From contig SVHT01000002.1 in NCBI GenBank assembly GCA_015055615.1, positions 62,001 through 126,000 on the forward strand: DNA of 64,000 nucleotides, read 5' to 3'. The position numbers were made by a program, and so were the translations under genes. The notes under the pieces were generated by a model. It had not been told where the DNA came from. It was given only the letters and a program-made list of their open reading frames with translations, and made no database searches. Origin of the DNA: Clostridiales bacterium. Lineage in GTDB: Bacteria; Bacillota; Clostridia; Christensenellales; Borkfalkiaceae. Shown here piece after piece: positions 9,846 to 14,234 of this stretch (within the stretch, counting starts at the first letter, position 1; each line of letters starts with the position of its first letter).

Positions 9846-10901
9846 ATGAGAAAGCAGACAAGGCTTGTGACGGTCGGCGACGTTAAAATCGGTGGCGGCG
9901 AGCGTGTAAAAATTCAATCGATGACTACGACGAAAACTTCGGACGTGGAAAAGACTGTGGCGCAAATTTTGGCGCTCGAAAATGCGGGTTGCGAGATTGT
10001 GCGCGTGGCGGTGTCGGACGAGGCGGACGCTTTGGCGATTAAGCAAGTGGTGGAAAAAATCAACTTGCCCCTTGTGGCGGATATTCATTTTTCACCCAAG
10101 CTCGCTGTTATGGCGATAGAAAACGGCGCGGATAAGGTGCGTATCAACCCTGGCAATATCGGGGGCGAAAACGAGATTAAGTACGTTGCCGATTGTGTAA
10201 AAGCGCATAAAATCCCCGTGCGAGTCGGCGCAAATACGGGCAGTATCGAAAAGAATTTTTTAGAAAAGTACGGCAGAAGCGAGCGGGCTTTGGTAGAGAG
10301 CGCTCTCTATAACGTCGGTATTTTGGAAAAACACGGCGTAAACGATATCGTAATTTCGGTAAAGGCGTCGGACGTGCCGTTGACGGTGGGGGCGTATACC
10401 CTGCTGTCGCAAAAAACCGAGTACCCTCTGCATCTTGGCGTGACGGAGGCGGGGACGACGGAGGCTGGTATCGTCAAGAGCGCCGTCGGTATCGGCAGTT
10501 TGCTTTTGAGTGGTATCGGGGATACGATTCGTGTTTCGCTCACCGATAACCCCGTCCAGGAGATTTATGCGGCGAAGAATATTTTGCGCGCGTGCGGTTT
10601 GGAAGAGGAATACGTGGAGGTGGTTTCTTGCCCTACTTGCGGACGTTGCGCATGGGAAAGTATGTCGCTGGCAAATAAAGTGACGGAGTTTGTCCGTCCC
10701 TATCAAAAGCGCGCGAAGATTGCGGTGATGGGTTGCGTGGTCAACGGCCCGGGCGAGGCGAAGGACGCGGACCTTGGGATTGCGGGCGGTAACGGCTCGT
10801 GTCTTATATTTAAAAAGGGTATGGCGTATAAAAAGGTGTCGGTGGAAAGCGCCGAAAGTGAATTTTTTAAGGAAATTAGGTTGTTGTTAGATGGCGAGTA
10901 A
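9846..10901 (+). CDS. ispG: 4-hydroxy-3-methylbut-2-enyl diphosphate synthase (flavodoxin/ferredoxin)
   Basis: Penultimate step of the MEP isoprenoid pathway, a [4Fe-4S] enzyme. The 351-residue protein shows V-K-I-Q-S-M-T-T-T, R-I-N-P-G-N-I-G and the cluster cysteines in S-C-P-T-C-G-R-C and V-M-G-C-V-V-N-G-P-G-E-A. It is the short bacterial form without the plant insert. It overlaps the following PolC-like gene by 11 bases, the usual ispG-polC coupling of Bacillota. Confidence 0.95.
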   Translation: MRKQTRLVTVGDVKIGGGERVKIQSMTTTKTSDVEKTVAQILALENAGCEIVRVAVSDEADALAIKQVVEKINLPLVADIHFSPKLAVMAIENGADKVRINPGNIGGENEIKYVADCVKAHKIPVRVGANTGSIEKNFLEKYGRSERALVESALYNVGILEKHGVNDIVISVKASDVPLTVGAYTLLSQKTEYPLHLGVTEAGTTEAGIVKSAVGIGSLLLSGIGDTIRVSLTDNPVQEIYAAKNILRACGLEEEYVEVVSCPTCGRCAWESMSLANKVTEFVRPYQKRAKIAVMGCVVNGPGEAKDADLGIAGGNGSCLIFKKGMAYKKVSVESAESEFFKEIRLLLDGE

Positions 10902-12471
10902 GACGGAACAATATTTGGCGGATATTCGTGCGTTGGACGGATTGAAAAACGCGATTTTGTGCGGGATTTCCGTGAGTAAACGGGATTACGGCGCGGAATT
11001 TTTGTTGGTGACGGACAAGACGTATACGGCGCAAGAAGAAAACGAGGCGAGGGAGGTATCGCAAAGGTATTTGCCCGCCGATTTTTCCGCGCGCGTAAAA
11101 ATTGTAAAACGCGTCCCCGACGCGCAGAGTGTCGGAGATAAAATCTTCGCGTTTATCGGCAAGAATTTTCCTGCGGCAGCCGCTTTTTTGGAACGGGAAA
11201 ATATCAAAGTGGAAATGCTGACGAGCGGCGCTAATTTTTACGTGGAGATAGCCTCGGGGGAACAGACGTTGTTTTCCTCGGGAAAAATTCTTGACGAGAC
11301 GAGTAAATACCTTATGAGCGGGTATTGCGGAAGTTTTTACGGCAACGTGCGGTTGGTGGAAAAGGCGGCGCCCGACGCTTCGATTTTGGACGAGCAGGTG
11401 GAAGAAAAGGAAGAGATTATTCCGCTTGAAATACGCCGTTTTTCCATTGAAAATTACAAGAAAATCGACGGCGCGGATACGTACGAGCAGTTGACGAAAG
11501 CGGTATACATAGCGGATAGCCATAACGTCGAGGGGGTGTATACGGTCTGCGGTAACGTGACGTATATAGAAGAAATTAAATACGTAAAGCACAACGACGA
11601 AACGGGCGAGGATATCGAGAAAACCCGTTTTTCGGTGACGATAACGGATGGTTCGGGCAGTTTGCGAACGACCTATTTCCCCAAGAAAGCGACGGTGGAA
11701 AAAATTCGTGAAATTAAGGCGGGGGATAAGATTATGATTACGGGCTCTAACGAGGAATATAAGGGCTCGAAGTCGTTTAAGGCGGCGAAAATTAATTTGG
11801 GTACGCCCCCCGAGGGTTTTGTACCCGAGGCAAGAAAGAGTAAGCCCGTGCCGAAATTTTACCACACCGTCTTTCCGCAACCATATGCCGATTATACGCA
11901 ATCGGGCTTTTTTGAAGACCGCTTTAAGCCCGACAATTTGAAAAATAACGTCTTCGTTTGTTTCGATTTAGAGACGACGGGGTTGAACAATAACCCCGCG
12001 ATGGGCAGAATGGACAGAATTATCGAGCTTGGCGCGGTCAAGATTGTAAACGGCGAAATCGTGGAGAAATTTTCTTCGTTTGTGGCGTGTCCCGAACGTT
12101 TGTCGAAAGAAATTATCAATCTGACGGGGATTGAGGACGCCGATTTGGTCGGCGCGCCCGAATACGAGCAGGTACTTGCCGATTTTTATAAATTCACCGA
12201 TGGAGCGATTTTGGTCGGGCATAACGTTACGTTCGACTACCGTTTCGTGTCTTATTATGGGGAACAATGCGGTTACGCTTTTGATAAAAAACAGTACGAT
12301 ACCTTGCATTTGGCGCAGGAAGTTTTGCGTGGAAAATTGGCGAATTATAAGCTGAATACGGTTGCCGATTATTACGGTTTTACCTTTAATCATCACCGCG
12401 CGTTTGACGATGCGTGCGTGACGGCGAAGGTGTTTATTGAGTTGGTAAAGGCAAAAGGTAAATTGGATTAA
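10891..12471 (+). CDS. PolC-like protein: N-terminal region, OB-fold and DEDDh exonuclease, no polymerase
   Basis: A 526-residue protein in the normal polC position. Residues 1-170 resemble the poorly conserved PolC N-terminus; 215-305 form an OB-fold-like domain with the K-A-G-D-K-I and G-S-K-S-F-K-A motifs; 355-520 form a DEDDh exonuclease with F-D-L-E-T-T-G (Asp359, Glu361), H-N-V-T-F-D (Asp449) and H-H-R-A-F-D-D (His502, Asp507). PolC normally has a PHP domain around the exonuclease and about 800 more residues of polymerase; both are absent and the stop is followed by an unrelated gene. All four exonuclease acidic residues are kept, so it is probably an active 3'-5' exonuclease. It could be a proofreading subunit working with another polymerase or a repair nuclease. 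Confidence 0.85.
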   Translation: MASKTEQYLADIRALDGLKNAILCGISVSKRDYGAEFLLVTDKTYTAQEENEAREVSQRYLPADFSARVKIVKRVPDAQSVGDKIFAFIGKNFPAAAAFLERENIKVEMLTSGANFYVEIASGEQTLFSSGKILDETSKYLMSGYCGSFYGNVRLVEKAAPDASILDEQVEEKEEIIPLEIRRFSIENYKKIDGADTYEQLTKAVYIADSHNVEGVYTVCGNVTYIEEIKYVKHNDETGEDIEKTRFSVTITDGSGSLRTTYFPKKATVEKIREIKAGDKIMITGSNEEYKGSKSFKAAKINLGTPPEGFVPEARKSKPVPKFYHTVFPQPYADYTQSGFFEDRFKPDNLKNNVFVCFDLETTGLNNNPAMGRMDRIIELGAVKIVNGEIVEKFSSFVACPERLSKEIINLTGIEDADLVGAPEYEQVLADFYKFTDGAILVGHNVTFDYRFVSYYGEQCGYAFDKKQYDTLHLAQEVLRGKLANYKLNTVADYYGFTFNHHRAFDDACVTAKVFIELVKAKGKLD

Positions 12472-12509: not shown

Positions 12510-13631
12510 ATGAACGGGAAAAAGACGATAGAGTATATCGACAAAATTTGCGCTGAAAAGGGGTTGACCTACTTGGACGTGCGTATGTATAAGGGCTATG
12601 AAGAGCTGTTTTCGTACGGAAAGGCGAACGGCGAAAAACCGACGGGGAAAGAGCGCTTGTTTTTGTTTTCCGCCACAAAACCGATGACGGTCGTTTGCGC
12701 CATGCGCCTTGTGGAAGAGGGGAAATTGGGCTTAGACGACGCCGTAGAAAAATATTTGCCCGCATACAAGGATATCTTTTTATTGGACGAGAAAGGCAAC
12801 CGTGTGCCGACGAAAAATAAGATGACTGTGCGCCATCTTTTGACTATGTCCGGGGGGCTTTCGTATAACGTGCAGACGAAAGCGGTGCAGGATATGCTCC
12901 GCGAAACGGACGGAAAACCTTCCACGGAGGAGGCGGTAAGCGCTTTTGTGAAAGAGCCGTTGCTCTTTGAACCGGGGACCCGTTTTGAATACAGCCTTTG
13001 TCACGACGTTTTGGCGGCGGTAATTGAAAAGGCGAGTGGAAAACGTTTTTCTGCGTATATGGACGAGATTATTTTTCAACCGCTCGGCATGACGGATAGC
13101 GGTTTTCATACCGAAGACAACGGTATGTACGATATGTATGACTGTGATTTAGAAGGAAAGACGTGGCAAATCGAGCCGTATAACCGTTTGATTTTAGGGG
13201 AGAATTACGACAGCGGCGGTGCGGGCGCGATTTCTAACGTAGACGATTACGTGAAGTTTGCGGTGACGCTTGCCAACGGCGGTGTGGCGAAAAACGGCGC
13301 GCGTATACTCCAAGAAAAGACGTTGGAAACGGTGCGTTCTACGGCGCATGCAGAGATGCAGGTGGAGAACAGTTTTACCTGCGTGCAAGGGGATGAATAC
13401 GTGTACGGTTTGGGGGTGCGCGTTCGTCAAAAGGACACGTCTTGGGGATTGGCTAAGGGCGAATACGGTTGGGACGGCGCAGCGGGTATGTATTTGATGG
13501 TTGACCCGCATCAAAAAATTGCCGTGGTAATTGGTATGCATTTGCTTTGTTGGCCCTATCTTTTCCGTGGGGAACACTTGAAAATCGTACAATGCTTGTA
13601 CGAGGATATGAAAAAGGAAAACTTGCTGTAA
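12510..13631 (+). CDS. Serine hydrolase, class C beta-lactamase / esterase family
   Basis: A 373-residue penicillin-binding-fold hydrolase. Motifs: S-A-T-K (Ser54, Lys57) for SxxK and Y-S-L at Tyr161 in place of YxN, as in esterase-type members; a G-W-D-G-A-A-G stretch near the C-terminus replaces the KTG-like motif. No signal peptide is visible, which argues for an intracellular esterase or peptidase rather than a secreted lactamase. It separates the PolC-like gene from rimP, a position that holds nothing in most Bacillota. Start follows AGGTGGGGGA. Confidence 0.85.
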   Translation: MNGKKTIEYIDKICAEKGLTYLDVRMYKGYEELFSYGKANGEKPTGKERLFLFSATKPMTVVCAMRLVEEGKLGLDDAVEKYLPAYKDIFLLDEKGNRVPTKNKMTVRHLLTMSGGLSYNVQTKAVQDMLRETDGKPSTEEAVSAFVKEPLLFEPGTRFEYSLCHDVLAAVIEKASGKRFSAYMDEIIFQPLGMTDSGFHTEDNGMYDMYDCDLEGKTWQIEPYNRLILGENYDSGGAGAISNVDDYVKFAVTLANGGVAKNGARILQEKTLETVRSTAHAEMQVENSFTCVQGDEYVYGLGVRVRQKDTSWGLAKGEYGWDGAAGMYLMVDPHQKIAVVIGMHLLCWPYLFRGEHLKIVQCLYEDMKKENLL

Positions 13632-13689: not shown

Positions 13690-13711
13690 AAGGATACTTA
13701 ATAATGATTGT

Positions 13712-13747
13712 GTTATTGAGAGCGGAGCAAAACCCGCTCTCAATAAT
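13712..13747 (+). promoter_or_regulatory. Leader hairpin upstream of rimP
   Basis: A perfect 13-bp stem (13713-13725 with 13734-13746), extended by a G-U pair, with an 8-base loop AGCAAAAC. No T-run follows, so it is not an intrinsic terminator; it lies 16 bases before the rimP start and close to the predicted 5' end. It could protect the mRNA or be a protein or RNase target. Confidence 0.7.
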
Positions 13748-13763
13748 GCTATTCAGGGGGATT

Positions 13764-14234
13764 ATGAAGACGAAAACGATAGAAGAAATTCAAAACGCGC
13801 TCCAACCGATTGCCGACGAACAAGGTATCGAGATTGTGGAAGTGGAGTTCAAACAGGGCAAGGAACCTGCGCTCACCGTATACATTGATATCGAGGGCGG
13901 AGTGGATTTGAATACCTGCGAAAAATTTCACCGCGCAATCGACCCCGTGTTAGATGAACTCGATCCGACGTTCGGCGCGCCGTACACGCTCAACGTGTCT
14001 AGCCCTGGTTTGGACAGACCGCTCAAAACCGATCGCGATTATGCAAAGTGTATCGGGCAGAGGGTGGAAGTAAAGCTGTTTGCGCCGCTCAAAGGCAAGA
14101 AGTTTTTCGAGTTGACCTTGAAAGGGCACGATGAGACGTGCGTGTACTTGGAAGACAAGGGCGAAGAAATGAAGATTGAAAAGGCGAAAATTGCAAAAAT
14201 TTGTCGCGCAATCGATTTGGACAGCTTGTTATAA
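13764..14234 (+). CDS. rimP: Ribosome maturation factor RimP
   Basis: Needed for 30S subunit maturation. The 156-residue protein shows the N-terminal alpha/beta domain (G-I-E-I-V-E-V-E-F), the conserved Y-T-L-N-V-S-S-P-G-L-D-R-P-L motif and a C-terminal SH3-like barrel ending A-K-I-C. ATG 13764 is chosen over 13704 because it follows CAGGGGGATT and lies beyond the leader hairpin. First gene of the rimP-nusA-rnpM-L7Ae-infB-rbfA operon. Confidence 0.94.
   Translation: MKTKTIEEIQNALQPIADEQGIEIVEVEFKQGKEPALTVYIDIEGGVDLNTCEKFHRAIDPVLDELDPTFGAPYTLNVSSPGLDRPLKTDRDYAKCIGQRVEVKLFAPLKGKKFFELTLKGHDETCVYLEDKGEEMKIEKAKIAKICRAIDLDSLL

Follow-up and report, generated by a model that had tools for sequence, protein, structure and literature searches.

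Genome comparisons show that, in a clade spanning several families within one order of Clostridia, polC has been reduced to a gene encoding two KH-like domains, an OB fold and a DEDDh exonuclease. The PHP domain (both pieces), the polymerase and the clamp motif at the C-terminus have been lost, the remnant sits at the polC locus, and DnaE is the only C-family polymerase detected in the clade. We call this polymerase-less PolC PolC-lite. Judging from its predicted domains and motifs, PolC-lite is likely a subunit of a DnaE-only replisome, derived from PolC and tethered to the clamp, that corrects DnaE errors in trans.

The window, by which we mean the whole 64,000-nucleotide stretch of DNA analyzed here, carries the gene as an open and complete forward-strand frame (10891..12471, +) encoding 526 amino acids. 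An earlier sequence-only reading had described a cleanly ending frame that encodes just the N-terminus, OB fold and DEDDh exonuclease of PolC, and Pfam, NCBIfam and hhalign agree with that description. The domain order is two KH-like domains, an OB fold, a short linker and the exonuclease. The N-terminal region, with two KH-like (type II) units, spans about residues 1–158 (10891..11364, +). The OB fold lies at about residues 216–305 (11536..11805, +) and scores slightly below the Pfam cut-off (25.7 against 27). The DEDDh 3'-5' exonuclease domain occupies residues 354–522 (11950..12456, +), and its RNase_T match (residues 356–515, 115 bits) is the only match above the Pfam cut-off. The top two NCBIfam models are PolC models, with the matched region confined to the exonuclease stretch, and the OB fold and exonuclease together align to residues 218–603 of 9qpc_A. 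The N-terminus and OB fold are co-linear with PolC (hhalign probability 99.6 over 286 columns); the N-terminal region alone gave 97.1, compared with 0.2 or less for one reversal and four shuffles of that region without the OB fold. By hhalign and these models, the KH-KH pair and OB fold of PolC are present together with a PolC-type DEDDh exonuclease, and the gene is, on its sequence, a PolC derivative. A second DEDD-type exonuclease in the genome (L189, 337 amino acids), with a weak RNase_T match of 37.7 bits, is not PolC-lite.

The same reading held that the PHP half and the polymerase are absent, and our searches bear this out. Pfam finds no PHP domain and no palm, fingers or thumb in the protein; the gap between OB fold and exonuclease is a short linker, and nothing follows the exonuclease. 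A model of the polymerase half of PolC had zero matches in a six-frame translation of the window (stretches of at least 25 amino acids), with the DnaE of the same genome serving as positive control at 156 bits. The protein ends four residues past the last exonuclease helix, and its C-terminus lacks the QxxLF clamp motif of PolC. An epsilon-like C-terminal segment that would bind DnaE is likewise absent, and the aligned relatives share no tail.

The linker carries a candidate clamp-binding motif of the type Qxx[LIMVF][FLM], read from the alignment as QSGFF in the window copy (residues 337–341; 11899..11913, +). The clamp-binding consensus is reported to be QxxLF, and the C-terminus of B. subtilis PolC to carry QLSLF (PMC12309361). 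In 53 of 57 scored nonredundant proteins the PolC-lite linker contains the motif, against 3.7 expected from shuffled linkers, and the stricter Qxx[LIM]F occurs in 44/57 (0.74 expected). The motif was spotted by eye in the alignment and counted afterwards, and 33 of the 57 scored rows are independent of the spotting; among the 33 named genomes outside the set used to spot it, 31 have it. The three unscored rows of the 60 nonredundant ones are the window itself, L025, where the motif is apparently missing, and L102. It is missing or altered in 4/57 and weak or unclear in rows whose exonuclease is dead. It lies between OB fold and exonuclease, typically 22–25 residues before the first catalytic aspartate, in a linker that occupies the place of the first PHP piece of PolC. 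In all 17 full PolCs scanned, such a motif lies no more than about 15 residues from the C-terminus. We infer that the linker motif is of the clamp-binding type and ties PolC-lite to the sliding clamp.

The placement of the gene is that of polC. The sequence-only reading had put it in an ispG-polC-rimP position; ispG does adjoin it upstream (9846..10901, +), its stop overlapping the PolC-lite start by 11 bases, and the locus is the polC locus, to which we add that another gene separates PolC-lite from rimP. This gene (12510..13631, +), which we place outside the system, encodes a beta-lactamase-fold (PF00144) serine hydrolase and was unmatched in the other loci fetched for the polC-locus comparison. 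Beyond it lies rimP (13704..14234, +), the first of the rimP-nusA-rnpM-infB run that marks the locus. Among 20 fetched loci of the order with full PolC (L002–L021; flanks of about 1.5 kb), 17 have ispG beside it. PolC-lite is readable in 27 of the fetched PolC-less loci; 25 of these have ispG upstream in the same orientation and 21 have rimP. The two loci where ispG was not seen are from family f28, and several contigs end early. The short form occupies 36/80 named loci, with frames of 492–595 amino acids, too short for a polymerase. Candidatus Coproplasma stercoripullorum (L112) is among the relatives with the short form and a Christensenella sp. record (L176) has a 1343-amino acid PolC frame; we take both to be Christensenellales in GTDB. 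Two other frames, L030 (G016) and L042 (G039), are other exonucleases and not PolC-lite, and L033 (G020) was excluded as it runs off its contig.

We assessed the extent of the loss in a census of 198 genomes of the order, each at least 90% complete, with family counts made by hand. PolC was found in 69/198 genomes, 66 above the model cut-off and three as partial matches (G048, G297, G327), and was absent from 128, spread over 15 families. One genome, G039 (f11), is undecided: it was a candidate for the PolC-less group, but ispG was not found there either and its DnaE has the PolC-type V593, so we read it as a probable assembly gap and assigned it to neither group. All 128 PolC-less genomes give some match to the PolC-lite model. 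The full model matches at E 2.6e-98 or better in 104 of them and more weakly in 24 (eight in f16, 14 in f19, two in f32). Fifteen of these weaker cases have long matches beginning in the N-terminus, and two (G016, G044) were read directly. The short form is thus seen as such in at least 121/128; for G299, G312, G325, G336, G347, G359 and G341, the extent of the match is not among the matches listed, and it could be to another exonuclease. No separate full-length PolC-lite is among the matches listed for PolC-bearing genomes (to about E 3e-60), and PolC and PolC-lite do not co-occur among the matches listed for the 198 genomes. Outside the order, 219/230 genomes of the class are above the PolC cut-off (overall 222/243, three of these within the order). 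Seven of the 230 (G092, G162, G139, G197, G239, G267, G293) have a best PolC match weaker than E 1e-70, which may reflect gaps in the assemblies or additional losses; G092 and G162 share a genus, and none of the seven has a full-length PolC-lite.

The sequence-only reading had left open that the true polC lies elsewhere or that a frameshift or assembly error was involved, and had proposed as the other option that the lineage dispensed with the PolC polymerase while keeping a stand-alone exonuclease. The latter is the option our searches support. The genome of the window (1.69 Mb in 12 contigs, 94% complete) has no full PolC elsewhere that we could find, and its single PF07733 (C-family polymerase) match is DnaE. 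In 32 of 34 PolC-less genomes there is likewise one PF07733 match; in G254 a single gene is in two pieces, and G041 has none. No second PF07733 gene was found among the 34, PF07733 being the only domain searched across genomes. Because so many genomes of the order share the short form, a frameshift or an assembly error is very unlikely. Truncated forms conserved in relatives, which the sequence-only reading had named together with a missing PolC as support for reassigned replication, are indeed present. That reading did not extend to the loss across the clade, the motif in the linker, the DnaE signature or the families with a dead exonuclease.

In a DnaE tree rooted on ten other Clostridia, the 30 PolC-less rows all fall together in a single clade (SH-aLRT 100, stem 0.35) that sits among PolC-bearing families and has f13 as its sister (SH-aLRT 91); the tree comes from a quick search with no bootstrap. 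Absent from these 30 rows are G039, which groups with its own PolC-bearing family, G029, for which a wrong antisense ORF had been taken and which was also dropped from the DnaE residue counts, and G020 and G041, which have no DnaE row. As the 30 PolC-less genomes form one clade, the polymerase of PolC was, most simply, lost a single time.

The DnaE of the clade has a distinctive signature. As in PolC-bearing relatives, its PHP metal site is intact (HHDHEHCDH) and it mostly has a QxSLF-like clamp motif. At residue 593 (L052:1765-5397), all 30 PolC-less rows have D and all 30 PolC-bearing rows have V. This position is close to the catalytic core, nine residues past the conserved KMD aspartate, which is presumably catalytic. 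Of the best-matching 29 further DnaE loci among 61 genomes of a phylum sample, 28 are readable at this position, with V in 20, I in six and M in two, and never D. Position 723 is S in 90% of PolC-bearing rows and A in all PolC-less rows, and PolC-less DnaEs have an insert of several residues near 504–508. The invariance of V593D at these divergences suggests constraint, while a clade signature need not be functional. Concerning the clamp loader, the DnaX frame of one 0.9-Mb genome (G028:C1:142565-143620, L214) is 410 amino acids long, compared with 501–706 in 15 others searched, possibly a clamp loader without the C-terminal part of tau.

PolC-lite is under purifying selection, as estimated from codon comparison. 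Compared with L102, the nearest relative fetched (90% identical), the gene has a dN/dS of 0.045 as a whole, 0.084 for the N-terminal region, 0.020 for the OB fold and 0.029 for linker plus exonuclease, at a dS of 1.3, which is high; comparisons to L103 and L104 were saturated or undefined. The catalytic exonuclease residues, described as intact in the sequence-only reading, are indeed all present in the window copy (D359, E361, D449, H502, D507). All five DEDDh residues occur in 62/62 aligned proteins, a set in which D359 and E361 were preselected in 36 rows (named relatives found by a pattern holding both) and which contains no exonuclease-dead rows, L030, L032 and L037 having been excluded from alignment A2 (26/29 rows kept).

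Exonuclease activity has probably not been kept throughout. In four of four rows examined from f16 (G016, G044) and f19 (G019, G047), the catalytic set is gone and the N-terminus and OB fold are kept at the locus. These exonuclease-dead rows are L206, L207, L208 and L032; L206 and L208 (f16, f19) have both ispG and rimP, and L207 has ispG alone. Two other f19 genomes, G381 and G391, still have strong full-model PolC-lite matches. One f30 protein (G030; L037:6654-8000) shows the reverse, with no OB match and the exonuclease residues kept. In sister family f13, two full PolCs (L019 and L021; G040 and G012) have an intact polymerase motif and a dead exonuclease (SRTFE and SRSTE for DEDHD), a third genome (G297) has a strong exonuclease match, and the PolC of L018 (f11) is missing the first Asp. 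In Pol III alpha subunits, the inactivated site according to a 2026 survey is PHP and not a DnaQ-type proofreader (PMC12926913). Taken together, the exonuclease-dead rows, the OB-less G030 protein and the dead exonucleases of f13 PolCs argue that the modules are separable and that the N-terminal part has its own role. Loss of the catalytic set in the f16 and f19 rows, along with the 24/128 weak matches, means that proofreading would not be the sole, or not a constant, role of PolC-lite; since some families lost the active site and keep the rest, a docking role should also exist.

Precedent for proofreading in trans comes from B. subtilis. There, DnaE is described as having no exonuclease of its own; it recruits PolC at primed ends, the PolC exonuclease corrects DnaE errors in trans, and a physical contact between the two polymerases underlies this correction (PMC5627055). 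A 2014 analysis reports a conserved putative epsilon-binding surface on clostridial DnaE1s and proposes that the PolC N-terminus contacts the clamp loader (PMC3919608). We propose that PolC-lite belongs to a DnaE-only replisome as a subunit attached to the sliding clamp through its linker motif. The KH-KH-OB part would dock on the replisome or on single-stranded DNA, akin to the proposed docking of the PolC N-terminus on the clamp loader, and the exonuclease would trim mismatched 3' ends left by DnaE, in trans. The clade would thereby have retained the trans function of PolC and discarded the remainder, with clamp attachment now provided by the linker. The B. subtilis precedent is inexact and a second proofreader is not strictly needed, because the clade DnaE keeps an intact PHP site. 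The PolC-lite exonuclease may be a second safeguard next to that site, which would explain how several sublineages could lose the active site and keep the docking part.

PolC-lite could instead be mainly a scaffold, in which the KH-KH-OB part and the clamp motif tether DnaE, the clamp and either the clamp loader or single-stranded DNA, with an exonuclease of secondary importance or in decay. The dead f16 and f19 rows with their retained N-terminus and OB fold, the full-model matches that are only weak in 24/128 genomes and the death of the exonuclease even in full PolCs of two sister-family f13 genomes would fit such a role. We nevertheless regard it as rather unlikely: 104/128 genomes, the f19 members G381 and G391 included, retain strong full-model matches, the five catalytic residues are found in all 62 aligned proteins (two positions preselected in 36), the dN/dS of linker plus exonuclease is low (0.029 against the nearest fetched relative), and module loss also runs in the reverse direction in G030. 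A stand-alone repair nuclease brought by the clamp, for example to mismatch or gap repair, and not a replisome subunit, seems improbable. Repair proteins are reported to carry clamp-binding motifs as well (PMC12309361), and PolC-lite is an independent polypeptide; against such a role stand the PolC-specific N-terminus that was kept, the place of PolC that was taken, and the fixed DnaE change common to the clade.

Explanations that deny the gene its origin or its function fare worse. Taken by itself, the exonuclease domain is similar to many DEDDh families, and an unrelated exonuclease might have moved into the locus, but the N-terminus and OB fold are co-linear with PolC, the locus is the polC locus of PolC-bearing relatives and the top-scoring exonuclease models are those of PolC, which makes a non-PolC origin very improbable. 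Still harder to sustain, to the point of being negligible, is a truncated pseudogene, frameshift or assembly error with the true polC elsewhere. These are draft genomes, some with short contigs, and G039 looked PolC-less through a probable assembly gap; against this stand the short form in at least 121/128 PolC-less genomes and 36 named records, purifying selection, a single polymerase, and a window with no polymerase remnant. Proofreading for DnaE from the clamp remains our preferred reading of PolC-lite.

PolC-lite has partial likenesses among known systems. With the B. subtilis-type PolC of Bacillota it shares the KH-KH N-terminus, OB fold, DEDDh exonuclease and a locus after ispG; unlike PolC it has no PHP, palm, fingers, thumb or helix-hairpin-helix, is about one third of the length, and has its clamp-type motif in the linker, where PolC has one at the C-terminus. 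Like epsilon (DnaQ) of E. coli Pol III, it is a DEDDh exonuclease encoded as a polypeptide of its own and is predicted to act for a DnaE1-type polymerase at the clamp. The clamp motif of epsilon follows its exonuclease, whereas the clamp-type motif of PolC-lite, putatively clamp-binding by sequence, precedes it, and PolC-lite differs further in its PolC descent, in the KH-KH-OB part in front and in having no C-terminal polymerase-binding segment. The exo-less PolCs of Clostridia and Negativicutes are likewise clostridial PolCs minus a module and, as far as the available text describes them, the mirror image, lacking the exonuclease insertion where PolC-lite lacks the polymerase (PMC3919608). 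DnaE1-only Clostridia, noted in 2014, also have DnaE1 and no PolC, and the available text of that account mentions neither a remnant derived from PolC, nor a loss across a clade, nor a signature in DnaE (PMC3919608). The configurations given in the available part of the 2026 complete-genome survey are DnaE1 only, PolC with DnaE1, and PolC with DnaE3, and a DnaE1 system with a PolC remnant falls outside them (PMC12926913). No polymerase-less PolC is among the matches listed from the open-licence literature, judged by titles and the starts of abstracts, with subscription papers mostly outside that scope. On balance we lean towards a fourth bacterial Pol III configuration, in which DnaE1 works with a PolC-derived, clamp-tethered exonuclease and docking subunit that arose by deletion of the polymerase in a two-polymerase system, DnaE being re-tuned next to its active site (V593D) as sole replicase. 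If true, an epsilon-like subunit would here have originated independently.

For low-GC Gram-positives, PolC is regarded as the signature replicase. The clade offers a natural experiment in the collapse of a two-polymerase replisome to one, and it bears on which PolC modules are important beyond polymerization. PolC is also the reported target of ibezapolstat (PMC11963600, PMC12592400); because PolC was not found in 128/198 genomes, a PolC drug should not reach such gut Clostridia through PolC. The clade is relevant, too, to the question whether the strong strand bias of Bacillota genes is due to PolC. In 20-kb stretches (L231–L290), mean gene-direction coherence was 0.72–0.86 in PolC-less genomes (five genomes, 37 stretches) and 0.61–0.74 in PolC-bearing ones (three genomes, 22 stretches), a comparison made by crude ORF calling in few genomes with one all-N stretch dropped. 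Coherence is no lower without PolC, which hints, weakly, that the bias is not caused by PolC.
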